From contig NC_041002.1 of the NCBI RefSeq assembly GCF_004193775.1, positions 14,894,113 through 14,958,112 of the forward strand: a stretch of 64,000 nucleotides of DNA, in the 5' to 3' direction. The notes under the pieces are model-generated. The model was given only the letters and a program-made list of their open reading frames with translations, was not told the DNA's origin and did not search any database. Shown here in pieces: positions 6,059 through 51,684 of this stretch. This DNA comes from Glycine soja. Its lineage: Eukaryota; Streptophyta; Magnoliopsida; Fabales; Fabaceae. Made by a program: the position numbers and the translations under genes. The first letter of the stretch is position 1. The number at the start of each line of letters is the position of its first letter.

Positions 6059-6648
6059 TGATGGAAGCTTGCTTGTGTGGCTTCTATGGAGACTGGATCT
6101 TTGAGCTTCAATTAGGTCCTTTAATGGTGATTTTCCACCATGGAGATGCAGCGGAAGACAAAGGAGAAGAGGTGAGAGGAGGTGTCATCCACTAGGGAAT
6201 AAGCCATGGAAGAAGGAGCTTCACCACCAAGATGAGCCTTGGATAAGAAGCTTGGAGAGGATGCTTCAATGGAGGAAAAGAAAGAGGGAGAGAAAGAGAG
6301 AGGGGGGAGCACGAAATTGAAGGAAGAAAAAGGGAGAGAAGTTGAACTTTGAGTTGTGTCTCACAAGGCTCTCATTCATCAAAGTTACCACAAGTGTTAC
6401 ACATTATTCTATTTATAGACTAGGTAGCTTCCTTGAGAAGCTTTCTTGAGAAAACTTCCTTGAGAAGCTTCTTTGAGAAAACTTCCTTGAGAAGCTAGAG
6501 CTTAGCTACATATACCTCTTTAATAACTAAGTTCACTTCCTTGAGAAGCTTCCTTGAGAAGATTCCTAAAGAAGCTAGAGCTTAGCTACACACACCTCTC
6601 TAATAGCTAAGCTCACCTCCTTGAGATGAGAAGCTAGAGCTTAGCTAC
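6059..6648 (-). mobile_element. Element V 3' LTR, left part (split by W)
   Basis: Starts TGATGGAAGC and ends where element W is inserted. The other half is at 30264-30579 and ends GGATTGCATCA, so the intact LTR was about 906 bp with TGATG..CATCA ends. It is in the family of the solo LTR at 51685-52634. Its middle (6425-6640) is a degenerate minisatellite of 'CTTCCTTGAGAAGCTT' and 'AGCTAGAGCTTAGCTAC' units. On the element's own (minus) strand it is the 3' LTR. Confidence 0.75.
6425..6648. repeat. Degenerate minisatellite in V LTR
   Basis: Repeats of 'TTCCTTGAGAAGCTT' and 'GAAGCTAGAGCTTAGCTAC' at irregular spacing, three or more copies each. One GCTAC unit was the 5-bp target duplicated by element W (6644-6648 and 30259-30263). 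Confidence 0.7.
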
Positions 6649-7784
6649 TGTAATACCCTAATTTCGTCCGGGAACTATTGTTTGATGGCATGCAACCTTT
6701 GGTTGACCGCTTCGAGGTACTTGGCACCCTTTGTTGCACAATATGTGAAGTTCCGAGACATGCCGGAAATCAAAAGGAAGCATTGTTACGCAATCCGTGA
6801 AATTCCGTAACATGCCAGAAATCAAAAGGAAGTATTATTACGCAATCCGTGAGTTTCCGTAACATTCCGAAAGCTAAAAAAGGAGTAATTACATGACCCA
6901 TAAGGTTCCGTAACCTTACGGAAAGAAAACAAGTATCGTTACGAAATTCGTAAAGTTTCGTAACGTTACGGAAAAAGAATCACCAAACAAGCAAAGGGGG
7001 GTGTATTTAGTAAAAAAGGGGGTGCAAATAGCAACCAGGCCCACTTGGGCGCCCACTTGGGCCTTCCAGATTGTTCCTCCAGAAGGCGGTTGCTTCTGGA
7101 GGAAGCAACCTGGCTTGCCTGGGCGAGCTGAGCTCGCCTGAGCGAGCTGGGTGGCAAGCTCCTCCCCTATTTTCCTATAAATAGAGGGAGGAGTGAAGAA
7201 GAAAAGGGTTCAGCCTTCTTGGCATTTCGTAATCACTTAAAATTAGTGAGGAAAATTGTTTCCGTGAAGAAAATCCAAGCCGAGGCGCTTCCGTAACGTT
7301 TCCGTGGGTGATTTCGCAAAGATTTTCAACCGTTCTTCATCGTTCGTCGTTCGTTCTTCGTCGTTCTTCGGTCTTCAACCGGTAAGTTCCCGAAATCGAA
7401 CTTTTCAATTCATTTTATGTACCCTTGGTGGTCCCCACTTGTTTCGCGTGCTTTTATTTTCATTTCATTTACTTTCCGTACCCCCTTTTGACGTGCTTCA
7501 GTCATTTACTTAAGTCATTTTCTCGCCTAATCAAAAAATAAAATAAATTTCCACCGATCATTTGATTTTTAATATCCGTTAATTTCTGTTAAAATGAAAT
7601 CCGACCGTTCGGTCATGCCGTAACCACGTTGGAAACCCAAAAGAGGTAAAATAATAATATAATAATCAAAAAATATCTTTTAGTAAAATAAGGCAAAAAA
7701 ATCCATCGGACGTTTCTCTTTGGAATTTCTCTTTCTTAATTGAATTGACTAATAACTAAAGTGAAACTAAGGCTAAAATCAACT
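6649..7784 (+). mobile_element. W 5' LTR, first part
   Basis: Matches the 3' LTR (28651 onward) base for base over most of its length. It includes the GC-rich inverted repeat (7122-7138) about 40 bases upstream of the TATA box CCTATAAATAG (7174-7184). It is interrupted after CAACT (7780-7784) by the Tekay-like element and resumes at 13301. Confidence 0.92.
7174..7184 (+). promoter_or_regulatory. TATA box of W 5' LTR
   Basis: CCTATAAATAG, also present at 29143-29153 in the 3' LTR and on the minus strand in the Ogre LTRs of Y and the solo copy. Transcription would start some 30 bases downstream, marking the U3/R border. Confidence 0.7.
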
Positions 7785-8066
7785 TGTGACATCCTAGAAA
7801 TTTCTACCCGGAATTTTGTAAACAATGCTTTTTGAATGATTATATATAAGTGTTATTCAGTATATATATATATACTTCTGGTAGAAGTAGGTATATTGGG
7901 GGAAAGATACGCGGGTTAGGCTGATTAAGGAAGAGAAATCCATAACTGGATAGTTATAGGTTAATTCTCAATTAATTAGTCTAAAAAAATTATCGTTTTA
8001 CGTACAACTTAAAATTTAACGAAACCAACCTCTGAACCACGCTCGGGGTTTCATTCTGAGTGTTTT

Positions 8067-8078
8067 GATATATATATT
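8067..8078 (+). promoter_or_regulatory. TATA-like promoter of Tekay LTR
   Basis: GATATATATATT, conserved at 44897-44908 in the second copy. It sits about 280 bases into the LTR and is followed by a CT-rich leader-like stretch. If it is the element promoter, the RNA leader before gag is about 3.6-3.9 kb and contains the accessory ORF. Confidence 0.45.
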
Positions 8079-8534
8079 GCCTACTTTCGAAAACTGGCCC
8101 CGACGGGTGCAGAGAAACGCGAGGGATTGGAACCAGTGAAATGACACGCAAACTGAGGCAGGATTTTAGTGTTTCAAAAAGGTCAGATTTTTCTCTTCTT
8201 GTGACTGAGTATAAGTCACATCAAGAAAAAAAATGGACCCTTTTGCTCCACTCAAAAGAAGACATGTGGCACATCCTTTTTTTTAAAAAAAAAAAAGAAA
8301 AAAGAAAAGAAAAGCCTTTTAAACCAAAAGCCACGTTCTCTCTCCTCACTCAGCCCAAAATTTCAGAAGCTTTTCTCCCTCTCTTTCTCACGTTGCTATT
8401 CCTTTCTTCTTCCTCACCATTGAAGCTCCATCAAAGCTCCAACCTTTGCACACCATTTTTGCTCCAAATCGCGAAAGGAAGCCATTTTCGGAGTCATGAA
8501 GAGCACCTCTCCATTGTGGGACTTCACATTTCAG

Positions 8535-10676
8535 GTTTGGGTAGACTTCTTATCACATGAATTTTCCTGGGTATTGGGTTTTGGGAGTTATGAAGGGTAG
8601 TTTTACTAGGTTTATGCCTCATGATAGTTATTTGTGAAGAAATTTGATGAAAACATGTTAAACTTGTCATGTTTGGTATAAGTCAAGCTTACCCATTCTG
8701 TTTTAGGGTTTTTATGATGATGCTTGTGATGCTTGTATGCTGAAATGGTTGATGGAAAACTGATAGAGATGAAGGGTAGAGTTAACCTAGGGTTAAAAGT
8801 GAGAATGTAGTGATATGAGTGGAAAAGTGTGATGCTTTAAGGATTTGAAAAGCTAAATCTGGATTTAGTGGTAATTGGAGGTTAAAGTGAGTTAATCTTA
8901 GTTTGAAATATCATTTAGGACTGGGGAAAGCTTGGGTTGTGCAAAGGAGGTAAATGAATGACCAAAGTGAAGGCAAGAGCCATTTCTAGGGTAAATTGGG
9001 TGTTGAGGAGTCAAATTTTGATTCGGTGGAGTTTTCATCGTAAAACCAGTTTGAGCGAGTTTAGATCAATGTTATAGACTTGTGTGAGATGAGAGTTTGC
9101 TCCAAAATTACCCCATTCTCATTTTCACTTCTCAAACCTTGAAAATCCACTAAATTGAGGGGTTTTAGATACCTAGATTTTGAGCTGCTTTGGTCTGAGG
9201 CTTGTCTTTGGTTTAGGTGTGATTTATACATGATTTAGGACTTGTAGGATCTAATTTGGGCAAAATTGGATGAAGGAAAGAGTGATTTCGAAAATATGCA
9301 CTATTATGCAGAATTTTGCTGTTGAAATGTGCAACAGAATTTTGTGCTTGTGCAGAAAATGCTTATGCATGGCTGATTGTGGAAAGGGTTGTACATATTG
9401 GGTTCTGGACGTTTTCTAGCAGATCCCAACGGTCAAAATGTAGACTTATGTACTAGGAACCTCCAGTAAAATTTTCGAGTTGATCCAACGGTGAACAAAT
9501 TGGAACGAAGAGAATGTTACTGGGGTATTTGAATAAGAAAAACTGTGGTATTGGTTTGTGCTTTGGGCAGAGTTTTCTGCCTCTGCCCTGTTTTTGGCTT
9601 GGTTTTGATAGTTCATGATGTTTGGATGTTGAAATTGCTTGGATGTTATGGAAGCTTGGAGGGATTGATGGGGACCCGGTGTTGAGAGGAACGAGGATAA
9701 GGGCTACGTGGGAGTACGTGAGCTCAGTTGAAGGTGGGCAACTGGGGATGGTGGATATATGTGTGATTTGTGGATGTGGATAGTCGAATTGCACCATCGC
9801 CCGACCACCACCTAGTACCACATGTGACGGGTACCCCATAATCCTACAAGCTTGAAGTGAGGAAGTGTGGAAGGGTGAGACTTCCTACTTTTATTCGTTG
9901 ACCACAGAGTGGTACCTGGAGATATGTCGCGGGGGTCAGGAGACCTTGGGGACGTTAGGTGGGGTGCTATTGCCCAAGACCAAGCTTGACCAATCCCGAC
10001 CCAACCCAGGCGTAGTCAGTCAGTGAGAACCTGTGATGTACCTAAACAGGCGAGCTCCTGGCAGTCAATCGATAAAAGAACAAAGACCACAAAGCAAGGA
10101 GGCTTGTGTGGTGGCTGGCCAGCTATGGATCTTAAGTAATATTTGGAACATGGCCTCTGGTAATCGATTACCAAGGGTGGGTAATCGATTACAAGGCTTA
10201 AAAATGAAGACAGGAAGTTAAGATGACCTCTGGTAATCGATTACCAAGGATGTGTAATCGATTACCAGGCCTAGAAATAGGATCAGGAACGTGAGAGGGC
10301 TTCTGGTAATCGATTACCAATGTTGTGTAATCGATTACCAGGCTTAGAAATGGAGACAGTATGTTGTGGAGGCCTCTAGTAATCGATTACCAATGTTGTG
10401 TAATCGATTACACAGAGTAATAGGCCACTGGTAATCGATTACCAGTTATGTGTAATCGATTACACAGTGCATATTGCAGGTTTTCATGTTCTGAAGTTGT
10501 GTAACTCAAGTTAGGCCTCTGGTAATCGATTACCAATGCTATGTAATCGATTACCAGAGAAGAAAAGCCTTGAGGCACACCTTTTAATTGCATGTAGTGG
10601 TTATGGGACGCATTGTGTTGCTACTGTAGTTAGATCTCTCGTGAAAAAGTCTACCCCTTTCTTTTATTTCTTGTAG
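8535..10676 (+). other. Candidate intron inside Tekay LTR
   Basis: The donor-like TTCAG|GTTTGGGT and the acceptor-like TTTCTTGTAG|ATCGTG (pyrimidine-rich before it) are both conserved in the second LTR copy (45366-47433). Splicing would join a CT-rich leader exon to the 143-codon ORF, whose ATG lies 6 bases after the acceptor, and would remove the palindrome array. The upstream frames in the two copies differ in phase at the donor, so the first exon would be untranslated. This is inference from sequence; no transcript evidence is available here. Confidence 0.4.
10161..10553. repeat. Array of 12 paired TAATCGATTA palindromes
   Basis: Twelve perfect copies of the 10-bp palindrome TAATCGATTA start at 10161, 10182, 10234, 10255, 10307, 10328, 10380, 10401, 10432, 10453, 10523 and 10544. 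They form six pairs, each spaced exactly 21 bases. Pairs recur at 73, 73, 73, 52 and 91 bases, so the first four pairs form a 73-bp tandem repeat. In most pairs the first member is the longer 16-bp palindrome TGGTAATCGATTACCA, and the second is usually preceded by TG or GG and followed by C. Twenty-one bases is two helical turns, which puts both sites on one face of the DNA. Confidence 0.93.
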
Positions 10677-10682
10677 ATCGTG

Positions 10683-11114
10683 ATGGCAGCGCAGTTCAGC
10701 CATGACCGAGTGGAGATGGAGTGCCTAGAGGGAGTTTGGGAGACCCTCGAAGGCAATGCGAGGTGCCGATTCCGTGGCACGATCCGACTCACGGCTACTT
10801 CGTTGGTACATCCAGAGGAATCAGCACGCACGCTTCAGCGCACTGTGGAGTGGATATTACCTACACCTACTCTATATCTACTAGTGGAGCCAGTCCAAGT
10901 GATTGAGGTGACGTCATCTGAGGAAGACCCCGAGGAGGACCCAGAGGAGCTACCTCCTGAGCCTGCTGTGGATGCTCTTGACTTTCTAGAGGGTGATGAG
11001 GACCCACTCCCTGAGGTGGATTCTCCCGAGGACGTCATGTCGACATCTGAGGCAGACTCTACGGAGGAGAGTGGTCCCGGAGGGATAGCGACTAGTGGAG
11101 GTTCTTCATCATAG
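10683..11114 (+). CDS. LTR-embedded acidic accessory protein, 143 aa (copy 1)
   Basis: I do not recognise a family. The ATG at 10683 follows a splice-acceptor-like TTGTAG. The N-terminal half (residues 1-70) is of mixed composition, with conserved blocks RVEMECLEG, WETLEGN and RTLQRTVEWILPTP. Residues 71-140 are strongly acidic (VQVIEVTSSEEDPEED, LDFLEGDEDPLPEVDSPED) and end in a Gly/Ser tail. VIEV followed by Ser and acidic residues resembles a SUMO-interacting motif. No signal peptide or membrane segment is seen. The second LTR copy (47440-47871) has the same length with no indel. By hand count 29 codons differ silently and 20 change the residue, which points to purifying selection on a real protein. 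Because it lies in the LTR it is carried at both ends of the element and upstream of gag in the genomic RNA. Function unknown; a nuclear or chromatin-facing role is speculation. Confidence 0.75.
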   Translation: MAAQFSHDRVEMECLEGVWETLEGNARCRFRGTIRLTATSLVHPEESARTLQRTVEWILPTPTLYLLVEPVQVIEVTSSEEDPEEDPEELPPEPAVDALDFLEGDEDPLPEVDSPEDVMSTSEADSTEESGPGGIATSGGSSS

Positions 11115-11704
11115 CAGACGGCTCCTTAGATTAGGATTATATACTTTTTGGGGGTGGGTGTATCTAATACAGATAGTTAGGTTTACTCTTTTGGTTTTTG
11201 TATGGGTAGACCTATTGTATAGGAATTTGATGATTGTATACATGTGTCTGAAGCCACCACATTGGATACCTTTGCTCTGGATGTCACTATGTATTTTGCA
11301 AAACTCCCATATTTGGGACAGCTTTAGATTATGAATGTACTTATGTTTAATCTTGTTATTTGAAAAGAACGTGTTAACAAACTTTATTTGAAAAGGAGTT
11401 CACCGACCGTATTTCATTTTATTATTTTACACGTGACGACCTGAAATGATGGCTGGTATACTTTTATTTTTGAAAGAGCAACATATTTTAGAGGTTATGC
11501 GTGATCAGAAAGAAATGACTCCGAATAGAGTTGTGAACTGGCTATTCAGGACTCTATAGTGATGACTTTCCTTCTGAACTTAATTACTATGAAAAAGAGA
11601 AAGGAATGAAAAAGAAAAAGAAAAAGAAAAAAAAATTTCCCATGGTTTTTGTTATTTAAATCATTATTATTAAACCAGTCATTATTTAGGGATGCCACAA
11701 ATGG

Positions 11705-11991: not shown

Positions 11992-12759
11992 ATGGCAGGA
12001 CGTGGTAGGGATCAGAACCGTGATGTTCTAGACCGCATCACAGCTGTGCTGGAAACTCTAGTGCAGGAACGTGATGTGGAGCCGGCAGAGTATCGAGGAC
12101 TCATGGCTTTCCGTAAGAACCACCCGCCGAAGTTCAGTGGAGACTATGATCCAGAAGGTGCTAGGTTGTGGTTAGCGGAGATTGAGAAGATTTTCGAGGC
12201 GATGGGTTGCCTCGAGGAGCATAAGGTCCCTTATGCGACATTCATCCTCCAAGGAGAAGCCGAGAATTGGTGGAAGTTTGTGAAGCCTTCATTTGCTGCA
12301 CCTGGAGGCGTGATTCCTTGGAATGCCTTCAAGGACAAATTTCTAGAAAATTATTTTCCACGAGATCTCAGGAAGCGGAAGGCGAGGGAATTTCTGGATC
12401 TGAAGTAGGGGAACATGTCTGTTGGGGAATACACGACCAAATTTAATGAACTTCTACAGTATTGGCCTCAATACCAAGATGCTCGGAATGAAGAAGATTT
12501 ATGTGCTCAATTTGAGAATGGGCTTCGATTGGAGATTCAGCAGGCGGTTAGCTATATGCAGATCACAGATTTTAATCAGTTGGTGACAAAGTGCAGGATT
12601 TTTGAGGACAAGATGAAGGAGAGGCAAGCTAGAGGCTTTGGAGGACCACAGAGAAGCCATCCTTTAAGAGGAAACAGTAGTAAGAGGATGAAGCCATATT
12701 CCAGCAACAAGGGGAAACAACCTATGGCTACGTCCACCGTGAGCCAGTCAAAGGGATAA
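11992..12759 (+). pseudogene. Tekay-1 gag, one in-frame stop, C-terminus lost
   Basis: Starts MAGRGRDQNRDVLDRI. The retrotransposon_gag domain follows: FRKNHPPKFSGDYDPEGARLW, YATFILQGEAENWW, FKDKFLENYFPRDLRKRKAREF, VGEYTTKFNELL, CRIFEDKMKERQ. One stop, TAG at 12406-12408, falls where the family has Gln (CAG to TAG). The basic tail (SHPLRGNSSKRMKPYSS) breaks off at about 12752, before any CCHC zinc knuckle, where sequence jumps into the 3' LTR. Gag assembles the particle and binds RNA; this copy lacks pol entirely. Confidence 0.9.
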
Positions 12760-13295
12760 CGACTAGTGGAGGTTCTTCATCATAGCAGACGACTCCTTAG
12801 ATTAGGATTATATACATTTTTGGGGTGGGTGTATCTAGTACAGATAGTTAGGTAATTGGATACCTTTTCTCTAGATGTCACTATGTATTTTGCAAAACTC
12901 CCATATTTTGGATAGCTTTAGATTATGAATGTACTTATGTTTAATCTTGTTATTTGAAAAGAACGTGTTAACAAACTTTATTTGAAAAGGAGTTCACCGA
13001 CCGTATTTCATTTTATTATTTTACACGTGACGACCTGAAATGATGGCTGGTATACTTTTATTTTTGAAAGAGCAACATATTTTAGAGGTTATGCGTGATC
13101 GGAAAGAAATAACTCCGAATAGAGTTGTGAACTGGCCATTCAGAACTTTATAGTGATAACTTTCCTTCTGAACTTAATTACTGTGAAAAAGAGAAAGGAA
13201 TGAAAAAGAAAAAAAAAAAAGAAAAAAAAAATTTCCCATGGTTTTTGTTATTTAAATCATTACTATTAAACCAGTCATTATTTAGGGACGCCACA
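12753..13295 (+). mobile_element. Tekay-1 3' LTR, last 543 bp
   Basis: Nearly identical to 11082-11699 of the 5' LTR apart from a roughly 75-bp deletion near 12852 and short length changes. The first 3.3 kb of this LTR are missing. The high similarity to the 5' LTR implies recent insertion and a later large deletion. Confidence 0.92.
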
Positions 13296-13300
13296 CAACT

Positions 13301-18522: not shown

Positions 18523-21500
18523 ATGTGAGGGTCGATTCTTTGAGGATCCTAACAACGAGGGTTTGATAATCGATTTTGACCGAGAAGTAAGTCAAACAAT
18601 AAACGAAGAAGAGGACGTCCTTTCACCAGAGTTGGAGAGGTTGATCGCTCAGGAAGAACGCGAAATGAAGCCTCACCAAGAGGAAACCAAACTGATAAAC
18701 TTAGAGACCGGGGAGCTAAAGAAAGAAGTGAAAGTAGGAACTGGTATGACCGCACCTATTCGCCAAGGTTTGATAACCCTTCTTGAAGAATATCAAGACA
18801 TCTTTGCGTGGTCATACCAAGACATGCCAGGTCTGGACCTCGACATTATGCAGCATAAGTTGCCATTGAATCCTGGGTCTTCCCCGGTTAAGCAAAAACT
18901 ACGAAGGATGAGACCCGAAATGTCTTTGAAAATTAAAGAAGAAGTGAGAAAGCAGTTTGATGCGGGTTTCTTGGCTGTAGCTCGATACCCAGAGTGGGTA
19001 GCCAACATTGTCCCGGTCCCAAAAAAGGACGGCAAGGTGCGAATATGCGTAGACTATCGGGACTTAAACCGAGCCAGTCCTAAAGAAAATTTTCCCTTGC
19101 CACACATTGATATACTGGTAGATAATACAACCAAGTTCGCCCTTTTCTCCTTTATGAATGGTTTCTCAGGGTATAATCAGATAAAGATGGCACCCGAAGA
19201 TGTGGAGAAGACTACTTTCGTCACCCTATGGGGAACATTCTGCTACAAAGTGATGGCCTTCGGGCTGAAAAATGCTGGGGCAACCTATCAGCGTGCCATG
19301 GTAGCGTTGTTCCACGACATGATGCATAAAGAGATAGAAGTCTACGTAGATGACATGATTGCTAAATCTTGGACTGAGGACGAACACCTCGTCAATCTGT
19401 GTAAGCTGTTTAGAAGGCTGCGGAAATACCAACTGAAACTAAACCCCGCCAAGTGCACCTTCGGGGTGAAATCAGGGAAGTTATTGGGATTTATCGTGAG
19501 CCAGAAAGGGATAGAGATAGATCCCGAGAAAGTGAAGGTCATCCTTGAAATGCCAGAGCCACGCACGGAGAAGCAGGTTCAAGGTTTCCTGGGCAGATTG
19601 AATTATATCGCGAGATTTATCTCACAACTCACCCCTACCTGCGAGCCCATCTTCAAACTATTGCGTAAGAACTAGGCGGTCCTGTGGAACAACGACTGCC
19701 AAGAGGCCTTCGAAAAAATCAAACAAAGCCTCGCGAATCCCCCGGTGCTCATGCCACCTGTAACAGGAAGACCTCTTTTCTTGTACATGACTGTGTTGGA
19801 CGAGTCTATAGGGTGCGTGTTGGGACAGCACGATGACTCTGGGAAAAAGGAACAAGCCATTTACTATTTAAGCAAGAAGTTTACCGCCTGTGAGATGAAT
19901 TACTCAATGTTGGAAAGGACGTGCTGTGCCTTGTGTCGCAACCTACCCATTGGCGGGAGGGCTACGCGGGGCTCGCGGGTGCGTCTTCCAAGAAAGGAAT
20001 ACGCGCAGAGTTGCCACCAAACGTTTATTTGAGGAAAACGTCGAAAAAACTGGAAAAGACGTGATCTACAAACTTTAAGTGAAAGGTTCGAGAATTGTAT
20101 TTACGCACGGGGAAGGTATTAGCACCCCACGCGCTCGTCACAAGAAACGGCAACCTTTAATCAAATGTGCAAATATGACTTCAATTTATGTTATCTTCCC
20201 TTTTAACGTTCTTATGCTTTTTTATATTTTTATCTTTTTGTGGTCGACAAGGGCGTTTCCCTTTGCTCCTACGTATTCCTCAATTGTGATGAGAAAATCA
20301 GACCTACGTAGTTCTTTTGTGAACAAAGCGTTTTGGTTAAGTTATTTTTTTAGTTTTTATTGAATGAAAGGTCATTTAAGGCGTTGGACCATTAGACAAT
20401 CTTTCGATTCTTTTGAAAAGTGAGAAAACATTAAGGCATTGGACCATTAATGATTTCTTTATTTTTGAAAGAGGTAACAAAGTTACATATTGATTTTAGG
20501 CTTTTTAGAAATCTACACTTAACCAATAAAAGCGGAAAAGACCATTTCAAGGCGTTGGACCTTTGAAAATGGCTTTTTTAGGCGATGACAAAAGTTTGGT
20601 TTATGAATTGATTTTAGCCTTAGTTTCACTTTGGTTATTAGTCGATTCAATTTAAGAAAGAGAAATTCCAAAGAAAAACGTCCGATTGATTTTTTTGATT
20701 TATTTTACTAAAAGATATTTTTGATTATTATATTATTATTATACCTCTTTTTGGTTTCCAACGTGGTTACGACATGACCGAACGGTCGGATTTCATTTTA
20801 ACAGAAATTAACGGATGTTACAATTCAAATGATCGGTGGAAATTTATTTTATTTTTGATTAGGGGAGAAAATGACTTAAGTAAATGACTAAAGCACGTCA
20901 AAAGGAGGTGCGAAAAGTAAATGAAATGAAAATAAAAGTACACGAAATAAATGAGGACCACTAAGGGTACACAGAATGAATTGAAAAGTTTTATTTCGGG
21001 AACTTACTGGTTGAAGACCGAAGAACAACGAAGAACGAAAGAAGAACGTTGAAGAATGGTCGAAAATCTTCGCAAAATCACCCACGGAAACGTTACGGAA
21101 GCGCCTCGGCTTGGATTTTCTTCACGGAAATGATTTTTTTCACTAATCTCAAGTGATCTCGAATTACCAGGAGGGCTGAACATTTTTCCCCTTCACTTCT
21201 CCCCCTATTTATAGGAAAATAGGGGAGAAGCTTGCCACCCAGCTCGCCTAGGTTGCTTCCTCCAGAAGCAACCGCCTTCTGGAGGAATATTTTGGAAGGC
21301 CCAAGTGGGCCTGGTTGCTATTTGAACCCCCATTTTTACTAAATACACCCCTTGCTCTTTTTTGGTGATTCTTTTTCCGTAACGTTACGAAATTTTACGA
21401 ATTTCGTAACGATGCTTGTTTTCTTTCCGTAATGTTACGAAACCTTACGGATTACGTAATCATCCCTTTTTTTCCTTTCGGAACGTTACGGAACTTTACA

Positions 21501-23736
21501 GATTGCGCACTAACACTTCCTTTTAATTTTCGGCATGTCACGGAACTTCACGGATTGTGCTACAATGCCTTCTTTTGACTTCCGGCATGTCACGGAACTT
21601 CACGAATTGCTTAACGATGGGTGCCAAGTACCTCGAAGTGGTCAAACGAGGGTTGCATCCCAACAACGGATGGTCCCTGGACGAAATTAGGGTATGACAC
21701 CTTGGTATGGGCGTCACATCGTCTTAGGCAGTACCTGCTCAGTCATACCACGTGGCTTATTTCCAAAATGGATCCCGTGAAATACATCTTTGAGAAGCCG
21801 GCCCTCACAGGACGAATCGCTAGGTGGCAGGTACTACTATCTGAATTCGATATTGTGTACGTCACCCAAAAGGCGATAAAGGGAAGCGCCTTGGCAGATT
21901 ATTTGGCCCAACAACCCCTCCAAGATTATCGGCCGATGCACCCTGAGTTCCCGGATGAAGACATCATGGCCCTATTCAAAGAGAAGCGGACGCACGAGGA
22001 TATAGACAAATGGATTGTTTGTTTCGATGGGGCATCTAATGCTTTGGGCCATGGAGTAGGGGAAGTCCTTGTATCCCCAGATGATCAGTGTATTCCTTTC
22101 ACGGCTAGGCTAGGTTTCGATTGTACCAACAATATGGCCGAATATGAAGTGTGCGCCCTTGGGATTCGAGCGGCCATTGATTTTGACGTAAAGCTACTCA
22201 AAGTGTATGGAGACTCGGCTTTGGTAATATGCCAGTTGAGAGGAGAATGGGAAACTAGGGATCCAAAGTTGATACTCTATCAAACTCATATCTTAAAGTT
22301 AGCCGAATTCTTTGACGACATTGCTTTCCACCACATACCTCAGGAAGAGAACCAAATGGCCGATGCATTGGCCATCTTGGCATCCATGTTTCAACTTGCC
22401 CCACACGGGGATCTGCCGTACATTGAATTCAGATCTCGGGGCAAGCTGGCACATTGTTATGCGATAGAGGAAGAGCGAGATGGGAAACCGGGGTATTTAG
22501 ACATCAAACAATATGTTGAGAACAAAGAATATCCACCAGGGATTTCTGACAATGACAAAAGAACGTTAAGGAGATTGGCTACTGGTTTCTTTGTGAGTGG
22601 TACCATCCTGTACAAACAAAACCACGACATGACCCTCCTGCGATGCATAGATGCCAAAGAGGCGAACTACATGATTGAGGAAATCCACGGGGGTTCATTT
22701 GGGACACATGCCAATGGGCATGCTACGGCCAGGAAGATCCTTAGAGCAGGTTATTACTGGCTCACTACGGAAAGCGATTGCTGCGCCCATGTAAGGAAAT
22801 GCCATAAATGTCAAGCGTACGCGGACAATGTCAATGTTTCGCCACATCCTCTGAATGTCATGTCCGCCCCTTGGCCTTTTTCCATGTGGGGGATAGATGT
22901 CATTGGGGCCATCGAACCCAAAGCTTCGAACGGTCATCGCTTCATTCTCGTGGCGATAGATTGTTTCACCAAATGGGTCGAAGCGGCTTCTTATACCAAT
23001 GTCACGAGGAGTGTGGTGGTCAGATTCATAAAGAAGGAACTGATTTGTCGATATGGACTCCCTAGGAAGATCATTACTGACAATGGCACCAATCTGAACA
23101 ACAAAATGATGCAGGAAATGTGCGGGGATTTCAAGATCCAGCATCATAACTCCACCCCCTATCGGCCAAAGATGAACGGGGCTGTGGAGGCTGCAAATAA
23201 AATATTAAGAAGATTATTCAGAAGATGACGGTGTCATACAAAGATTGGCATGAGATGTTGCCTTTTGCCCTGCATGGATATCAAACCTCGGTACGAACTT
23301 CTACTAGGGCAACGCCATATTCCTTGGTTTATGGGATGGAAGCGGTACTCTCATTTGAGGTAGAGGTCCCTTCCCAGAAGATATTAGCGGAATCGGGCCT
23401 AGAAGAATCAGAGTGGGCTCAAACACGCTACGACCAGCTCAACCTTATTGAAGGTAAGCGTTTGACGGCCATGAGCCATGGGCGCCTGTATCAACAAAGA
23501 ATAAAAAACGCGTTCGACAAGAAGGTACGCCCGCGCAAATTCATTCAGGGGGACCTTGTCCTGAAAAAGATATCCCACGCTGTTAAAGATAATCGAGGGA
23601 AGTGGGCCCCGAATTATGAAGGGCCTTTCATTGTGAAGAAGGCTTTTTCTGGGGGGCTCTGGTGCTCACCAACATGGATGGCAAGGAGCTACCCTCGCCT
23701 GTGAACTCTGATGTCGTTAAGCGATATTACGCTTAA
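18523..23736 (+). pseudogene. W pol: RT, RNase H, archaeal RNase H, integrase (interrupted)
   Basis: RT (about 18900-19560): NIVPVPKKDGKVRICVDYRD, FPLPHID, AFGLKNAGATYQRAM, catalytic YVDDM. One stop, TAG at 19673-19675, follows LLRKN. The first RNase H region is cut at 19933 by a reversed solo LTR and resumes at 21705. A second, archaeal-type RNase H (about 22015-22400) has FDGASN, NMAEYE, YGDSALV and NQMADALA, supplying the acidic residues. Integrase: HH-CC zinc finger ending CHKC (about 22700-22815), then Asp in GIDVIG, Asp in DNGTN and Glu in GAVEAAN (about 22890-23190). Single-base losses shift the frame near 23205 and near 23650, and the true stop is 23734-23736. Together these domains reverse-transcribe and integrate the element. 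Confidence 0.92.
19934..21699 (-). mobile_element. Solo Ogre LTR, reversed, inside W RNase H
   Basis: Runs TGTCGCAACC to GGTATGACA, the reverse complement of the TGTCATACC..GGTTGCGACA Ogre LTR. It is flanked by the 5-bp duplication CCTTG (19929-19933 and 21700-21704). It carries the reversed TATA region (about 21205-21220) and the GGCGTTGGACC hairpin units. No internal sequence remains, as expected after LTR-LTR recombination. Removing it and one duplicate restores the RNase H frame. Confidence 0.94.
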
Positions 23737-27745: not shown

Positions 27746-28395
27746 GTGAAAGAACCCGGTGGACCATTCAGTCCCACCCTCAAATCTTATACGGAGCCCC
27801 ATGAACTGCTTATCATTCATGCATTCTCCACCATCGAGTTTGGAGCCCCACGAATTGATTGCCTAGTGTTGTTCGTCTATCCTTCACCCTCAAATTTTAT
27901 CCGGAGCCCCATGAATTGCTTATCATTCATGCATCCTCCACCATCGAGTCTGGAGCCTCACGAATTGATTGCCTAGCGCTGTTCGTCTATCCTCCACCCT
28001 CAAATCTTATTCGGAGCCCCATGAATTGCTTATCATTCATGCATCCTCCACCATCGAGTCTGGAGCCCCATGAATTGATTGCCTAGCGCTGTTCGTCTAT
28101 CCTCCACCCTCAAATCTTATTCGGAGCCCCATGAATTGCTTATCATTCATGCATCCTCCACCATCGAGTCTGGAGCCCCACGAATTGATTGCCTAGCGCT
28201 GTTCGTCTATCCTCCACCCTCAAATCTTATCCGGAGCCCCATGAATTGCTTGTCATTCATGCATCCTCCACCATTGAGTTCGGAGTCACACGAATTGATT
28301 GCCTAGCACTGTTCGTGTATCCTCCACCATCCTATTCGGAGCCCCATGAATTGATTGCCTAGCGCTGTTCATGCGTCCTCCGTTATCAAGCACGG
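27746..28395. repeat. 110-bp tandem repeat in W 3' UTR
   Basis: GCCTAG(C/T)G(C/T)TG landmarks fall at 27861, 27971, 28081, 28191 and 28301, exactly 110 bases apart, with a last half unit at 28357. Each 110-bp unit is itself a dimer of about 55-bp halves sharing GGAGCCCCATGAATTG. Tandem repeats between integrase and 3' LTR are typical of Ogre-like elements and can seed satellite DNA. Confidence 0.93.
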
Positions 28396-28637: not shown

Positions 28638-28650
28638 AAAGAGGGGCAAC
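28638..28650 (+). promoter_or_regulatory. W polypurine tract
   Basis: AAAGAGGGGCAAC immediately before the 3' LTR start TGTCATACCC at 28651. It serves as plus-strand primer for reverse transcription. Confidence 0.85.
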
Positions 28651-30258
28651 TGTCATACCCTAATTTCGTCCGGGGACTATTGTTTGATGGCATGCAACCT
28701 TTGGTTGACCGCTTCAAGGTACTTGGCACCCTTTGTTGCACAATACGTGAAGTTCCGAGACATGCCGGAAATCAAAAGGAAGCATTGTTACGCAATCCGT
28801 GAAATTCCATAACATGCTGGAAATCAAAAGGAAGTATTGTTACGCAATCCGTGAGTTTCCGTAACATTCCAAAAGCTAAAAAAGGAGTAATTACATGACC
28901 CATAAGGTTCCGTAACCTTACGGAAAGAAAACAAGTATCGTTATGAAATTTGTAAAGTTTCGTAACGTTAAGGAAAAAGAATCACCAAAAAAGCAAAGGG
29001 GTATATATAGTAAAAATGGGGGTGCAAATAACAACTAGGCCCACTTGGGCCTTCTAGATTGTTCCTCCAGAAGGCGGTTGCTTCTGGAGGAAGCAACCTC
29101 GCTCGCCTGGGCGAGCTGGGTGGCAAGCTCCTCCCCTATTTTCCTATAAATAGAGGGAGGAGTGAAGAAAAAAAGGGTTCAGCCTTCTTGGCATTTCGTA
29201 ATCACTTAAAATTAGTGAGGAAAATTGTTTCCGTGAAGAAAATCCAAGCCGAGGCGCTTCCGTAACGTTTCCATGGGTGATTTCGTGAAGATTTTCAACT
29301 GTTCTTCATCGTTCGTCGTTCGTTCTTTGTCGTTCTTCGGTCTTCAACCAGTAAGTTCCCGAAATTGAACTTTTCAATTCATTCTATGTACCCTTGGTGG
29401 TCCCCACTTGTTTCACGTGCTTTTATTTTCATTTCATTTACTTTCCGTAACCCCTTTTGACGTGCTTCAGTCATTTACTTAAGTCATTTTCTCGCCTAAT
29501 CAAAAAATAAAATAAATTTCCACCGATCATTTGATTTGTAATATCCGTTAATTTCTGTTAAAATGAAATCCGACCGTTCAGTCATGCCGTAACCACGTTG
29601 GAAATAAAAAAGAGGTAAAATAATAATATAATAATAAAAAAAATATCTTTTAGTAAAATAAAGCAAAAAAATCAATCGGACGTTTCTCTTTGGAATTTCT
29701 CTTTCTTAATTGAATTGACTAATAACTAAAGTGAAACTAAGGCTAAAATCAACTCGCAAAGTCAAGCTCGTCCGCAAAAAATCACTAAAAAGGATTTTAA
29801 GGTTCGATACCTTAGTTTTTCTCACCAAGTAAAAATGGATAATTTTAAGGTCCAACGCCTTAAAAGGACCACCTTCCAAGTAAAAAGAATCGCTTGATTC
29901 ACCCTTAAGAAAGAACTACGTAGGTCTGGTTTCCTCTTCGATGGAGGGTACGTAGGAGCAAGAGCCCCGCTTTTGTCGACCTCAAAAATAAAAAAGGGAA
30001 ATAAAAGTTTAGATACACAATTTCACACAATTCTAATTTAAGGTTGTTGTCCTTTGGGACAAACGTGAGAGGTGCTAATACCTTCCTCAAACGTAAATAC
30101 AACTCCCGAATCTGGAATATTCTTTATGACCGGTTTCCTTCGGTTTTTCCGACGTTTTCCACAAATAAACGTTGGTGGCGACTCCGCGCATTTTCCTCCT
30201 TTGGAAGACGCACACGTGAGCCTCGCCTCGCTCGCCCGCAAAAGGGTAGGTTGCGATA
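28651..30258 (+). mobile_element. W 3' LTR, complete
   Basis: 1608 bp from TGTCATACCC to GGTTGCGATA (family end is GCGACA). It contains the GC-rich quasi-palindrome (29101-29116), TATA box CCTATAAATAG (29143-29153), CGTAACGTTACGG-type repeats upstream, and 'TTAAGGTCCAACGCCTTAA' hairpin units (about 29846). It is followed by TSD GCTAC (30259-30263). Confidence 0.94.
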
Positions 30259-38118: not shown

Positions 38119-39291
38119 TGTCACAACTTACCCTTCGACGGGGAGGGCGATGCGAGACACACGTTTATTTGAGGAAAACATCAGAAAAATCGGAAAAGAC
38201 GTGGTCTACGAACTTTAAGTGAAATGTTCGGGAGTTGTATTTACGCACGGGGAAGGTATTAGCACCCCACACGTCTGTCACAAGGGACGACAACCTTTAA
38301 TCAAATGTGCAAACATGACTTCAATTTGGGTTATCTTCCCCTTTTAACGTTTTTATGTCTTTTATATTTTTATCTTTTTGTGGTCGACAGGGGTGTTTCC
38401 CTTGCTCCTACGTATTCCTTAATTGTGGTAAGGAAATCAGACCTACGTAGTTCTTCGAGAACTAAACGTTGGTTAAATTGTTTTTATCCTTTTTTTGCAA
38501 GATATATTTTTATTGAACGGAAGGGTCATTTAAGGCGTTGGACCATTAAACGATCTTTCGATTCTTTTGAAAGGAGAGAAAACATTAAGGCATTGGACCA
38601 TAAATGATCTCTTGGTTTTTGAAAGAGGTGACAAAGCTATGTATTGTTTTTAGGCTTTTTAAATCCACGTCTAACCAATAAAAGCGGAAAAGATCATTTC
38701 AAGGCATTCGACCTTAAAAATGGCTTTTTAGGTGATGACAAAAGTTTGATTTATGAATTGATTTTAGCCATAGTTTCACTTTAGTTATTAGTCAATTCAA
38801 CTAAGAAAGAAAAATCCCAAAGAAAAACGTCCGATTGATTTTATTTTTATTATTTTACTAAAATATATTTTTTGATTATTATATTATTATTTTGCCTCTT
38901 TTTTGGTTTTAAACGTGGTTACGGCATGACCGAACAGTCGGATTTCATTTTAACAGAAATTAAAAGATGTTACAATTCAAATGATCGGTGGAAATTTATT
39001 TTATTTTTTATTAGGCGATAAAATGACTTAAATAAATGACTAAAGCACATCAAAAGGGGGTACGAAAAGTAAATGAAATGAAAATAAAAGCACGCGAAAC
39101 AAGTGGGGACCACTAAGGGTACATAGAATGAATTGAAAAGTTCGATTTTGGGAACTTACCGGTTGAAGACCGAAGAACGATGAAGAACGGTGGAAAATCT
39201 TTGCGAAATCACCCACAGAAACGTCTCGGAAGCGTTATGGAAGTGCCTCGGCTTGGATTTTCTTCACCGAAACAATTTTTCTCACTAATTT
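38119..39291 (-). mobile_element. Y 3' LTR, truncated
   Basis: Starts TGTCACAACTTACCC and matches 49773 to about 50990 of the other LTR, lacking about 44 bases near 38163. It breaks at 39291 inside U3 (the promoter side), where it meets intron sequence. Confidence 0.9.
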
Positions 39292-43195: not shown

Positions 43196-44600
43196 CTAGT
43201 GATTTCTAATTATATGGGCCATTAAATCTATCATATGCTGACAATAGCCAAGAAGTTCGTGGATCTCCTCGGGGGCGGAGTAGGTGTCCACCATTGCTTT
43301 GGCCTTGGCTAGCAATTGGGGAAGCTCTTGACTCCCATTCAAAGTAAGAGCAAATCGGTCCATCCACATTGTTGCCTCTTGATGTAACGCGTCGATCACC
43401 ATTCCTCTAGCCTCCTTTTCCTCGTACACTTGGGCATACTCGTTCGCCACTTTGTGCTCATGGGCCGTGGCTAGATTTAGTTCTTCTTGGTACTTGCTGA
43501 CGATAGCTAACATGTTGCTCTCTGTCTCGCATAAACGCTGAGACAAGTTTCTTTTGGACCTTGAGCAAGCAACTAACTCCTCTTTCAAGACCATGCTATG
43601 TGATCGTGATTGGTCTCTCTCTTCCCTTCGAAGCTTGAGCTCACTGTTGCTGCCCCATAAAGCTCCACGAAATTTGTCACGGCCATGCTCTTCCTTGCGA
43701 GCCCTCTTGGTTTCTTGTTCAAGGGCTCTTGCGGTAGCTGCATTTTCTTCTCGTAACCCGGCACACTCTTTCCGAATGTCTGTAGCGACCAACTTGAATT
43801 TTTCTTTGGCAAGTCTTGCTTTTCCTAGTTCTGTTTTGAGAGCTTAGACTTCTTCATCCTCTTTCGGAGCTTTGAAGTTCTCTTCGTTGATAATCTTTAA
43901 CTTGGAGAGCCAATCTAACCCTCGTGTAAGAACTTTCAGCCATTCATGATAACCACCGATGAGGCCATTACGAATGCCCCTAAGTTCTTTATCTTTCCTT
44001 AACGAGCTTTCCCACGCCTTATGGACTCTTTGTATAACCTTGAAACTTTGCGCGCCGAAATCTCTCACAAGGAAAGGAGACAGGCTTTCTTTCGCCGGTG
44101 CTCCTCTCATGGGGTACCCTAACTGTCTTATAGCAAGTGCGGGATTGTAGTTAATGCAACCCCTCGTTCCTATCAACGGGATGTTTAGGTAGTCCCCACA
44201 TGAGAAGAGAACTCCCTCCTTTCCTTCCTTCCATCGTGGAAACCAGTTGATTGTTCTGCCTCCTATCCCAGCCAAGTGTTGGTCCCAATCTACTCTTCTC
44301 TTTTCGACACACGAGCGATGGCTTTGGGGTGGACATCGATGCCTTATGTCTTGTTGGAATAGGTGCAAAACCAACCATACACAAAGAGCGGGTAAGCAGC
44401 AGATGATCCGTGCGCTACTCTTCTCGCACCTTCGGTCAAATGTGTGAAATAAGCCCGCCTAGATAGCCACTACCGGGCTTTCTTCGCTATGGTGATATGC
44501 AAGGAAAGCATCAATTGCGGCTAGGTCCACCAAACCATCCATGTTTGGAAAGAGGACAACCCCAAAGATTAACAATGCTAATACGTCCATAAACGGGATC
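43196..44600 (-). pseudogene. Y ORF1, C-terminal part
   Basis: Right after the solo LTR the frame reads VLALLIFGVVLFPNMDGLVD and AAIDAFLAYHH, then a stop near 44460. It resumes with IPLIGTRGCINYNPALAI, LSPFLVRDFGAQS and ESSLRKDKELRGI, and then the coiled-coil tail (REENAATARALEQETKRA, LKLRREERDQS) ending AHIIRNH at 43196. The frame breaks near 43845. It matches W 13612-14597 and extends it upstream. Confidence 0.88.
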
Positions 44601-45365
44601 TGTAACATCCTGGAAATTTCTACCCGGAGTTTACGGAAACGATGTATTTTGAATGATTATATATATATATATATATAAGTATTGTTCCGTGTATATGTAT
44701 AGATATGTTCTTGGTAGAAATAGGAATAGTGGGGGCAAGATACGCGGGTTAGACTAATTAAGGAAGAGAAATCCATAACTGGGAGGTTATGGGTTAATTC
44801 TTAATTAATTAGTTAAAAATCATCGTTTTGCGTGCGACTTTGAATTTAACGAAACCAACCTCTGAACCACGCTCGGGGTTTTATTCTGAGCGTTTTGATA
44901 TATATATTGCTTGCTTTCGAAAACTGGCCCAGGCGGACGCAGAGAAACGCGAGAAACTGGAATCAGAGAAACGGCACGCAAACCGAGGCAGGATTTTAGC
45001 GTTTCAAAGGTCAGATTTTTCTCACTTTTGTGACTGAGTATGGGTCACAGTCAAAAAGAGAAAGTGGGCCCTTCTTGCTCCACTCAAATAGGGACATGTG
45101 GCAGAGCTTGAATAAAATAATGGAAAAAGGGAAAACCTTTTATTTAAGACCAAAAAGCAACTCTCTCTCTCTCTTCACTCAGCCCCACAAAATTTCAGAC
45201 AGCTCTCCCTCTCTCTCACGCAGCCTTCTTCTTCTTTTCTCCCATCCACCATTGTTGCCCAACAAAGCTCCAACCTTTGGTGCTCATTTCCGCTCCAAAT
45301 CGCAAAAGGAGGGCATTCCCGGAGTCGTGAAGTGCGTGGCTACGAGTGGGACTTCGAAAATTCAG

Positions 45366-47433
45366 GTTTGGGTGGACTTCTTTCTCTCTTAAATTTCGTG
45401 GGTATGGGGTTTTGGGAGATATGATGGGTAATCTTGCTAGGGTTCTGCTGTGTGATGATTATTTGTGAAGACATTTGTTGAAAGCTTGTTGAAATTGCCA
45501 TGTTTGGATGAGTTAAACATACCCATTCTGTTTTAGGGTTTTTGTGATGATGTTTGTGATGTTTATATGCTGAAATTGCTGATGGAAATCTGTTAGGGAC
45601 GAAGGGTAGAACTAACCTAGGGTTAGAAAGTGAGAATGTGATGTTATGAGTGGAAAAAAAAGAGTGAGACTTTGAGGGTTGAAAGGCTAAGTCTGAATTC
45701 TGTGGTAAATGGAGGTTAAAGTGAGTTAATACTAGCTTGAAATGTCATTTAGGACTTATGAGAAAGCTTGGACTGTGCTAGAGAGAAAAATAAATGACCA
45801 AAGTGAACAAAGAGCCATTTCTAGGGCAAATTTGGGTGTTGAAGAGTCAAATTTTGATTCGGAGAGATTTTAGGTGTAAATCCAGTTTGAACAAGTCTAA
45901 ATGGATGTTATGGACTGGTGTGAGGTGAGAGTTTGCTTCAAATTTACCTCATTCTAAATTTCACCTTTCAAACCTAGAAAAGCCATTGAATGGAGGGGTG
46001 TTGGACACCTAGATTCTGTGTTGCTGTGCTTTAAAGCTTGAATTTGGTTTAGGCATGATTGATACATGATTTGGGACTTGTAGGAATTGATTTGGGCAAG
46101 ATTGGATGAGAGGAAGTGTGATTTTCGAAATCTGCACTTATGCAGAATTTTTGCTGTGAAATTGTGCAGCAGAATTTTGCACAAGTGCAGAGAAAATGCT
46201 TGTGTGTGGTTGGCTGTGGAAAGTCTAGTGCAGAATGAGTTCTGGATGTTTGCCAGTAGATCCCAACGGTCCAAATGTAGGCTTATGCACTATAGACTCC
46301 CAGTAAAATTTTGGAGTCGATCCAACGGTTAATGAATTGGATCGAAGGAATTGTTACTGTGGTCTTTAAGTGAGAAAAGCTGTGATTTTGGTTGATGTGT
46401 TGAGCAGAGTTTTCTGCCTTTGTTCTGTTTTGCTTGGCTGTGATAGCTTGTGCTGTTTGAATGTTGTTTTGCTTGGATGTTGTGGAAGCTTGGGAGGATT
46501 GATGGGGACCCGGTGTTGAGAGAAACGAGGATATGGGCTACGTGGGAGTACGTGAGCTCAGTTGGAGGTGGGCAACAGGGGATGGTGGGTTTATGCGCGC
46601 ATTGTGGATGTGGAAAAACTTGTTGTGCACCATCGCCCGACCGCCACCTAGTACCACATGTGATGGGTACCCCATAATCCTACAAGCTTGAGATGAGGAA
46701 GTGTTGAAGGGTGAAACTTCCTGCTTTTATTGTTGACCACAGAGTGGTACCTGGAGATATGTCGCGGGGGTCAGGAGACCTTGGGGACGTCAGGTGGGGT
46801 GCTATTGCCCAAAACCAAGCTTGACCAATCCCGACCCAACCCGGGCATAGTCGGTCAGTGAGAACCTGTGATGTACCTAAGCAGGCGAGCTCCTGGCAGT
46901 CAACCGATAAAAGGAAAACAAAGACCACAAAGCAAGGAGGCTTGTGGTGGCTGGCCAGCTGTGAATTTGTGTGATATGTGGAGTATGGTCTCTGGTAATC
47001 GATTACCAAGGGTGGGTAATCGATTACAAGGCTTAAAAATGAAGACAGGAGGCTAAGATGGTCTCTGGTAATCGATTACCACGGGGTGTAATCGATTACC
47101 AGGCTTAAAAACGAAGTCAGGAAACCTAGGGAGCCTCTGGTAATCGATTACCAGCCTGTGTAATCGATTACACAGAGGAATGGGTCACTGGTAATCGATT
47201 ACCAGGCATGTGTAATTGATTACACAGTGTATTTTTGCATATTTCATGTTCTGAGGCTGTGTAATTCAAGTTTAGCCTCTGGTAATCGATTACCAAGGCT
47301 GTGTAATCGATTACCAGAGATGGAAAGCCTTAAAATACCCCTTTTACTTGCATGTAGTGGTTATGAGACAAATCGTGTGCAGCGCAGTTAGATTCTTGTG
47401 AAAGAGTCTACCCCTTTCTCTTCTTTCTTGTAG
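45366..47433 (+). other. Candidate intron inside solo Tekay LTR
   Basis: ATTCAG|GTTTGGGT donor and TTTCTTGTAG|ATCGTG acceptor, at the same places as 8535-10676 in Tekay-1. It encloses the palindrome array and ends 6 bases before the ATG of the acidic ORF. Confidence 0.4.
46996..47313. repeat. Array of paired TAATCGATTA palindromes, copy 2
   Basis: Ten sites start at 46996, 47017, 47069, 47089, 47141, 47161, 47192, 47213, 47283 and 47304. Within-pair spacing is 21, 20, 20, 21 and 21 bases; pair-to-pair it is 73, 72, 51 and 91. Nine are perfect and the one at 47213 is TAATTGATTA. One 73-bp unit fewer than in Tekay-1, otherwise the same architecture. Confidence 0.93.
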
Positions 47434-47439
47434 ATCGTG

Positions 47440-47871
47440 ATGGCGGCGCAGCTAATTCGTGATCGAGTAGAGATGGAGTGCCTAGAGGGAGCTTGGGAGA
47501 CCCTCGAAGGCAACACGAGGTGCCGATTTCGGGGCACCATTCGATTCACGGCTACTTCTTTGGTGCATCTAGATGAACCTGCACGGACGCTTCAGCGCAC
47601 TGTGGAGTGGATACTACCCACGCCTACACCATATCGTCTAGTGGAGCCCGTTCAAGTGATCGAGGTAACGTCATCCGAGGAAGACCCTGAGGAGGACCTG
47701 GAGGAGCTACCTCCTGAGCCTGCTGTGGATGCCCTTGACTTTCTAGAGGGTGATGAGGATCCACTTCTTGAGGTGGATTCTCCCGAGGAAGTCATGTCGG
47801 CATCTGAGGCAGACTCTACGGAGGATAGTGGCCCGAGGGAGATGGCGATCAGCGGAGGCTCTTCATCCTAG
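47440..47871 (+). CDS. LTR-embedded acidic accessory protein, 143 aa (copy 2)
   Basis: Same length and frame as 10683-11114, with no indel in 143 codons. The core is conserved (RVEMECLEG, RTLQRTVEWILPTPTP, VQVIEVTSSEEDPEED, PAVDALDFLEGDEDP). Differences cluster at residues 5-7, 44-47, 64-66 and 133-137. It is open although the LTR is a solo relic, and it follows the same acceptor-like TTGTAG. Family unknown. It could act as an accessory or regulatory factor of the element; this is inference from conservation and position only. Confidence 0.75.
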   Translation: MAAQLIRDRVEMECLEGAWETLEGNTRCRFRGTIRFTATSLVHLDEPARTLQRTVEWILPTPTPYRLVEPVQVIEVTSSEEDPEEDLEELPPEPAVDALDFLEGDEDPLLEVDSPEEVMSASEADSTEDSGPREMAISGGSSS

Positions 47872-48456
47872 TGGACAGCTTTTTGGATTAGTTTTGTATA
47901 CTTTTTGAGGGTGGGTGTATCTAGGACTGACTGTTAGGTTTACTCTTTTGTTTTTGTATGGGTAGACCTGATGTATAGGAATTTGATGATTGTATACATG
48001 TGGCTGAAGCCACCACTATGGACACCTTTGCTCTGGATGACACTATATATTTTGTAAAACTCTCATATTTTGGACAGCTTTAAATGATGAATGCATTTAT
48101 AATCGATCTTGTTATTTGAAAAGAAAGCATTAGCAACTTTATTTGTAATAGAGTTTATCGACCGTATTTTATTCTTTTATCTTCATGTGACGACCTAAAG
48201 TAATGGCTGGTACATTCTTCCTTTTGAAACAGCAAAATAATTTAGAGAATTATGAGCGGTAAGAAAGAAATGACTCCGAATAGAGTTGTGAACTGGCCAT
48301 TCAGGACTTTATAATGAGGATTTTCCTTCTAAACCTAGTTACGGTGAAAAGAGAAAGAACCGAAAAAGAAAAAGAAGAAAAAAAAATTTTACCATGGTTT
48401 TTGTTATTTAAATTATTTCTATTAAACCAGTCATTAATTTAGGGCGCCACAGGATC

Positions 48457-51549: not shown

Positions 51550-51554
51550 ATAAG

Positions 51555-51684
51555 CTAGCTACATTCGTGGATGAGATCAACTTTTTTAGGGGAGGAAACC
51601 ATTCTTATAATTAGTACCCCAACAATTTCAATCAAGGACAGGGCTTCAAGCAAAGTCAAGGAATGCGTAGGCCTTAACCCATGC
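51555..51684 (+). pseudogene. Athila-like gag relic, second part
   Basis: Continues from 38113. The fragment reads NNFNQGQGFKQSQGM, the Asn/Gln-rich gag C-terminal region of Athila elements. Cut at CATGC (51680-51684) by a solo LTR. Confidence 0.6.

Follow-up and report, generated by a model that had tools for sequence, protein, structure and literature searches.

A reading frame inside an LTR has a retroviral precedent in the superantigen (Sag) of MMTV, which lies in U3, is copied to both ends and is expressed from the 3' LTR. The usual view of LTRs is that they are regulatory DNA, and insertions are dated from the divergence between their LTRs as though it were neutral. A study of Del LTRs classes the LTR as a non-coding region (PMC4029996).

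Frames beyond gag-pol have been described elsewhere in such elements. Plant additional ORFs (aORF/eORF) are described from the internal part of the element, usually from the interval between pol and the 3' LTR (PMC7264820), and a 2019 survey of additional ORFs left out any frame shorter than 250 codons (PMC6317226). Retrosat2, which the same survey assigns to the Del/Tekay group (PMC6317226), shares with RIRE3 and RIRE8 a frame called ORF0 that evolves faster than ORF1 and that is reported, in the portion of the source available, only in grasses; Soysat2, the soybean homolog of Retrosat2, is listed there with ORF1 only (PMC3485330). The LTR retrotransposon Cer1 of C. elegans produces CERV, a novel accessory protein, from a spliced mRNA, and its genomic RNA keeps the splice sites; according to the available text, experiments showed that Cer1 solves the export of its intron-bearing RNA through CERV (PMC10309623). 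No protein gene embedded in a plant LTR was described in the titles and abstract starts among the matches listed by a literature search, and the two papers matched by a full-text phrase search are by title on other subjects; since the search covered few subscription papers, a report elsewhere is possible.

Here we analyse a 64,000-nucleotide stretch of the Glycine soja genome (the window; NC_041002.1, positions 14,894,113 to 14,958,112), in which a frame of 143 codons lies within two LTRs. Given its position and its length, a survey such as the one described above, restricted to frames of 250 codons or more, would miss it.

Two separate insertions carrying the same frame

The two copies of the frame are located at 10683..11114 and 47440..47871, both on the forward strand, and translation at these positions gives 143 amino acids and a stop in each case. 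Copy 1 lies in the 5' LTR (7785..11699, forward strand, TG...CA) of an internally deleted element, which was delimited by pairwise alignment, by the PBS-like TGGTATCAGAGC just 3' of the LTR and by the target site duplication (TSD) CAACT at 7780-7784 and 13296-13300. A partial gag on the same strand (11992..12751, PF03732) is located downstream, placing the frame 5' of gag in this element. A stop codon in frame at 12406-12408 breaks this gag; the part upstream of it matches PF03732 with an E-value of 2.7e-7, the part downstream falls below the gathering score, and the remainder of gag and pol are absent. The element closes with a truncated 3' LTR (12752..13295, forward strand), recognized by its similarity to the 5' LTR and by the CAACT that follows it, which retains only the last codons of the frame and aligns with the 5' LTR in stretches of 441 and 102 columns, at 96.1% and 95.1% identity respectively. 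Copy 2 lies in a solo LTR (44601..48451, forward strand, TG...CA) flanked by the TSD GGATC at 44596-44600 and 48452-48456. The LTR lengths of 3915 bp and 3851 bp are consistent with, and not diagnostic of, the soybean Del subgroup, for which the accessible text gives 3737.1 bp (sd 169.8 bp; PMC4029996).

As a correction to the initial sequence-only reading of this DNA, the two LTR copies are not the two ends of one element: the TSDs (CAACT and GGATC) identify them as separate insertions, and selection can consequently have acted before insertion. Because the LTRs of the copy-1 element differ by about 4%, this copy has accumulated about 2% of change of its own since it was inserted; we infer that the rest of the divergence between the copies predates insertion and accumulated while the lineages were active, the stage at which a functional product is expected to be under selection. 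The same reading had proposed that the frame survives in solo LTRs, and copy 2, with its 5-bp TSD, provides one such case.

The window also contains a repeat of about 1.1 kb in several copies and both orientations (6642-7784, 28646-29754, 20605-21699, 38185-39291 and 49873-51557; 83-95% identity), as well as a tandem repeat at 27774-28357, seen as overlapping self-matches with a period of about 110 bp and 91-94% identity.

Purifying selection on the frame

The pairwise alignment of the LTRs is free of gaps across the frame, which is open in both copies as originally claimed, and a recount of the codon pairs returned exactly the reported 29 codons with only silent differences and 20 with replacements. 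These 49 codons hold 56 base differences, distributed as 7, 10 and 39 over codon positions 1, 2 and 3 (p=5e-8 against equality). The 432 bp of the frame contain no gap event, compared with 38 in the 3,375 aligned columns of flanking LTR; about 4.9 would be expected in the frame (Poisson P(0) about 0.008), a value to be read with the caution that gaps in the flank cluster. The frame also differs in composition, with a GC content of 0.56 against 0.33-0.43 elsewhere in the LTRs. As for the segments RTLQRTVEWILPTP and VQVIEVTSSEEDPEED, which had been described as fixed, both are identical in the two window copies but only mostly conserved across the wider family.

The proposal that the frame evolves under purifying selection holds for the two copies in three different analyses. 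Maximum likelihood estimation under the Goldman-Yang model (GY94, F3x4 frequencies) gave an omega of 0.174 for the pair and rejected an omega of 1 (2dlnL 33.5, p 7e-9), with values of 0.15 for residues 1-76 (p 9e-7) and 0.26 for residues 77-143 (p 8e-3). The NG86 method gave a dN of 0.065 and a dS of 0.45, a ratio of 0.14. For the second analysis, neutral evolution was simulated from each copy using a mutation spectrum with CpG classes taken from the LTR outside the frame, with about 56 changes per run and 20,000 runs per copy, of which 2,475 and 2,833 remained free of stops. Among these stop-free outcomes the silent share was 0.26 +/- 0.06, compared with an observed 0.59 that none of the 2,475 or 2,833 simulations reached (maxima 0.52 and 0.56). 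The flank spectrum predicts about 35 replacement to 12.5 silent codons, or 2.8:1, within the two to three replacements per silent change that had been assumed for neutral drift. Finally, a codon-phase scan in 432-bp windows showed that the largest share of differences falling in one phase is 0.70 at the frame and at most 0.46 in 874 other windows, which overlap one another and none of which touches the frame.

One observation complicates a simple reading of these results. The silent divergence of the frame (36 of 106 sites, 0.34) is higher than the mean divergence of the flanks (552 of 3,375 columns, 16%). Flanking divergence varies from 5% to 30% along the LTR, so that parts of the flank seem to be constrained themselves, or else the segment with the frame seems older than its neighbours through recombination. 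The central interpretation of the sequence-only reading, a selected protein-coding frame inside an LTR, is supported, and we consider it practically certain that the LTR contains a genuine protein gene.

Gene anatomy, encoded protein and relatives

Both LTRs contain sequences that may belong to a larger transcription unit. A TATA-like motif, GATATATATATTG, is found on the forward strand at 8067..8079 (at 44897 in copy 2) and may act as the promoter, a role assigned from its sequence. Further downstream, a donor site CAG^GTTTGG at 8534/8535 would end exon 1 at 8534 (45365 in copy 2), and a pyrimidine-rich acceptor, TTTCTTGTAG^ATCGTGATG, is located at 10676/10677 (47433^47434 in copy 2) and ends 6 nt 5' of the ATG. 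Together, these sites delimit in both copies a putative intron of about 2.1 kb (8535..10676, forward strand; 45366-47433 in copy 2). For the frame to precede gag in the genomic RNA, transcription must begin upstream of it, as the TATA-like motif and the splice-site sequences suggest.

Gene models from the database bear on the same structure. At least part of the extension matches the LTR in 57 of 58 N-terminally extended models, and exon 1 ends at the donor at 8534 in 32 of the 58 when aligned to copy 2 and in 28 when aligned to copy 1, these models being database predictions that may be ab initio. A second exon-1 donor near 10014 is used in six of the 58, and copy 2 has no GT at this place. 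In the predicted exon 1 codon phase is absent and the copies diverge by 27-30%, and we therefore read this exon as a leader. From the splice sites and the models, the protein is probably made from a spliced LTR mRNA.

Two further features were noted inside the putative intron region. Conservation within the LTR is highest in a non-coding block at 9801-10232 (about 46640-47010 in copy 2), which lies within the putative intron, lacks codon phase and diverges by 5-9% against about 16% overall; no unusual RNA folding was found in its 9801-10130 portion (z -0.45 and -1.02). An array of palindromic TGGTAATCGATTACCA / TGTAATCGATTACA-like pairs extends over 10152-10557 and 46989-47317, with a spacing of mainly 73 bp in copy 1 and with 12 AATCGATT sites in copy 1 and 9 in copy 2. 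Located just 5' of the frame, this array is a possible enhancer or protein-binding array.

The structure of the encoded protein was predicted with AlphaFold2 using 64 sequences. The model predicts a compact N-terminal beta domain with three long strands (residues 8-22, 27-40 and 49-60), where residues 11-60 reach a mean pLDDT of 93-97 per ten residues, followed by an acidic C-terminal tail predicted to be disordered. An earlier model built with 59 close sequences displayed the same strands with lower confidence. No fold relative was found.

The distribution of change along the protein was reconstructed on a tree of 118 unique 143-residue cores, which yielded 864 amino-acid changes, 160 of them on internal and 704 on terminal branches. 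Internal changes are rare in the strands (0.53, 0.79 and 0.58 per site) and in residues 61-77 (0.29), reach 0.94 in residues 78-94, and are commoner in the two loops (2.25 and 1.38) and in residues 95-120 (1.65) and 121-143 (1.74), with 1.43 for residues 1-7; the strands and residues 61-77 thus span 0.29-0.79 changes per site and the loops and residues 95-143 span 1.38-2.25. Terminal branches show a weaker regional contrast (3.07 to 6.83 changes per site), as expected if dead insertions decay neutrally.

The frame is conserved across many copies of the family. A search of a protein database, composed of predicted proteins only, with the window protein (P0001) returned 312 relatives at E<=1. 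Among the best 120 of these, all relatives with a named species belong to Glycine max or G. soja and are annotated as 'hypothetical' or 'uncharacterized', and no grass species appears. The ungapped 143-residue core is present in 119 of the fetched proteins, 118 of them unique. A Pfam scan found no family in P0001 and only a sub-threshold match to DUF6255 in P0002 (E 0.16). The first 80 residues used alone as query recovered 85 relatives of 56-140 amino acids, shortened and frameshifted copies included. Four clusters (P0167, P0168, P0169 and P0171) are cut off at the same place, after VEW/VAW, and finish with a TAPWISFVYF-like end in place of the tail, suggesting that this tailless variant has multiplied.

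More distant relatives (P0178, P0179, P0182 and P0186), at 48-58% identity, keep the N-terminal domain and lack the acidic tail. A profile built from these four retrieved 80 proteins at E<=10, and its eleven best rows form the distant branch (the same four and P0197-P0203). Several proteins of this branch start at the residue matching M12, which is a candidate start. A basic linker and two zinc-knuckle motifs are present in P0197-P0200, P0202 and P0203, and in P0201 and in P0204, the twelfth row of the profile, the first motif is present before the protein ends. The first motif (CX2CX3HX4C) was identified by eye; at the second, PF00098 was detected in six of eight relatives scanned, five of them above the curated cut-off, the remaining two (P0205 and P0208) belonging to the acidic-tail branch. 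The CCHC zinc knuckle was found by Pfam only in these distant relatives and not in the proteins of the window itself.

Possible functions and comparison with known systems

The reading that we prefer, tentatively, is that of an LTR-embedded and probably spliced accessory gene that acts in trans on the handling of unspliced RNA, as Rev and CERV do. A transcript would start at the LTR promoter near 8067, and removal of the intron of about 2.1 kb within the LTR would bring the ATG of the frame near the 5' end of a short mRNA, the unspliced RNA serving as genomic RNA and as gag-pol mRNA. Since the unspliced genomic message would keep the intron, the element would face the known problem of exporting an intron-bearing RNA. 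Acting in trans and probably in the nucleus, the protein would bind the nucleic acid of its own element and promote the production, export or packaging of RNA that has not been spliced. Its working core would be the beta domain, and the C-terminus differs by branch, with zinc knuckles and a basic linker in one and the acidic tail in the soybean one. Nucleic-acid binding is suggested by the zinc knuckles of the distant relatives. In the soybean branch the acidic tail takes their place, which leaves transcriptional activation and anti-silencing as serious rivals.

The first of these rivals, which we consider unlikely, is that the protein activates transcription from its own LTR. The beta domain would dimerise or bind DNA, possibly at the AATCGATT palindromes, of which there are 12 in the LTR of copy 1 and 9 in that of copy 2, and the acidic tail with its hydrophobic residues (VDALDFLEGDEDPLPEV) would be the activation domain. 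The tail may resemble acidic activation domains, and such an activator would be comparable to retroviral transactivators. In the 118 sequences the net charge of the tail averages -24.6 (range -28 to -19), and D97, D100, D105, V112 and D113 are each kept in 113-117 of them. Against this, the tail has an excess of E-to-K changes (58 observed, 32 expected; 50 of the 58 on terminal branches), so that its acidic charge is not clearly protected, the zinc-knuckle branch does without an acidic tail, and the fold search gave no DNA-binding fold.

Somewhat less likely again is an anti-silencing factor acting in trans on the copies of the family. VANC proteins act in this way for VANDAL DNA transposons. 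A location in the LTR would keep the gene in every copy, beside the target of silencing. The presence of the frame in a solo LTR and the many full-length frames of the family fit a trans-acting factor, but the Pfam and fold searches linked the protein to no known factor, either by sequence or by fold. We regard as improbable that the frame was captured from a host gene, or that its product was later taken over by the host, with selection acting through the host and not the element. No homolog of named function was found, as this would allow, but the named matches listed are multi-copy Glycine hypothetical proteins, no single-copy host locus was seen among the best 120 of the 312, and the extensions of the gene models match the LTR at least in part in nearly all cases. 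That the frame is open by chance, with a non-coding cause for its substitution pattern, is scarcely credible: dead copies can stay open (probability of no stop 0.12-0.14 in the neutral simulation), but the one-frame codon-phase signal is absent from the rest of the LTR, the omega test and the homologs at 48-58% identity oppose it, and it could be rescued only by misalignment, whereas the pair aligns over the frame with no gap.

Returning to the accessory gene, any LTR in which the frame is intact would carry it as a self-contained unit, and this would apply to solo LTRs as well. More tentatively still, the LTR may be a complete, portable, intron-bearing protein gene with promoter, 5' exon, intron and coding exon, whose helper copies, solo LTRs among them, could act in trans across the family. 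If this is true, the family spreads self-sufficient helper genes, and LTR-embedded genes may be a class that has been overlooked because LTRs are annotated as non-coding; dozens of matches to this frame are already in soybean databases as 'hypothetical proteins'. Where the LTR contains a selected gene of this kind, protein constraint acts on part of it for as long as the element is active, and a solo LTR can be the source of a trans factor for the whole family. The presence of a gene with an intron may also account for the length of some very long plant LTRs. The frame offers a testable candidate for the means by which high-copy plant retrotransposons regulate their own RNA or evade silencing.

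Among the systems described, the plant aORF/eORF frames resemble the present one, as far as the accessible texts go, in being extra to gag-pol, conserved across family copies and without a known domain (PMC7264820, PMC6317226), and differ in their internal location (PMC7264820), whereas this frame lies wholly inside the LTR in both window copies. ORF0 too is an extra frame 5' of gag-pol, and its elements have LTRs of about 3 kb or longer; the available description places it upstream of ORF1 and only in grasses (PMC3485330), whereas the present frame lies in the LTR, in Glycine. With CERV it would share the origin of an accessory protein from a spliced mRNA, a likeness drawn here from predicted splice sites and, for Cer1, from the accessible part of the report (PMC10309623). 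For the location inside an LTR, the frame can be set beside Sag of MMTV with no claim of homology. Like Sag, this protein frame lies inside the LTR; unlike Sag, it is probably located 3' of the transcription start site, and would thus be readable from a 5' LTR or from a solo LTR.
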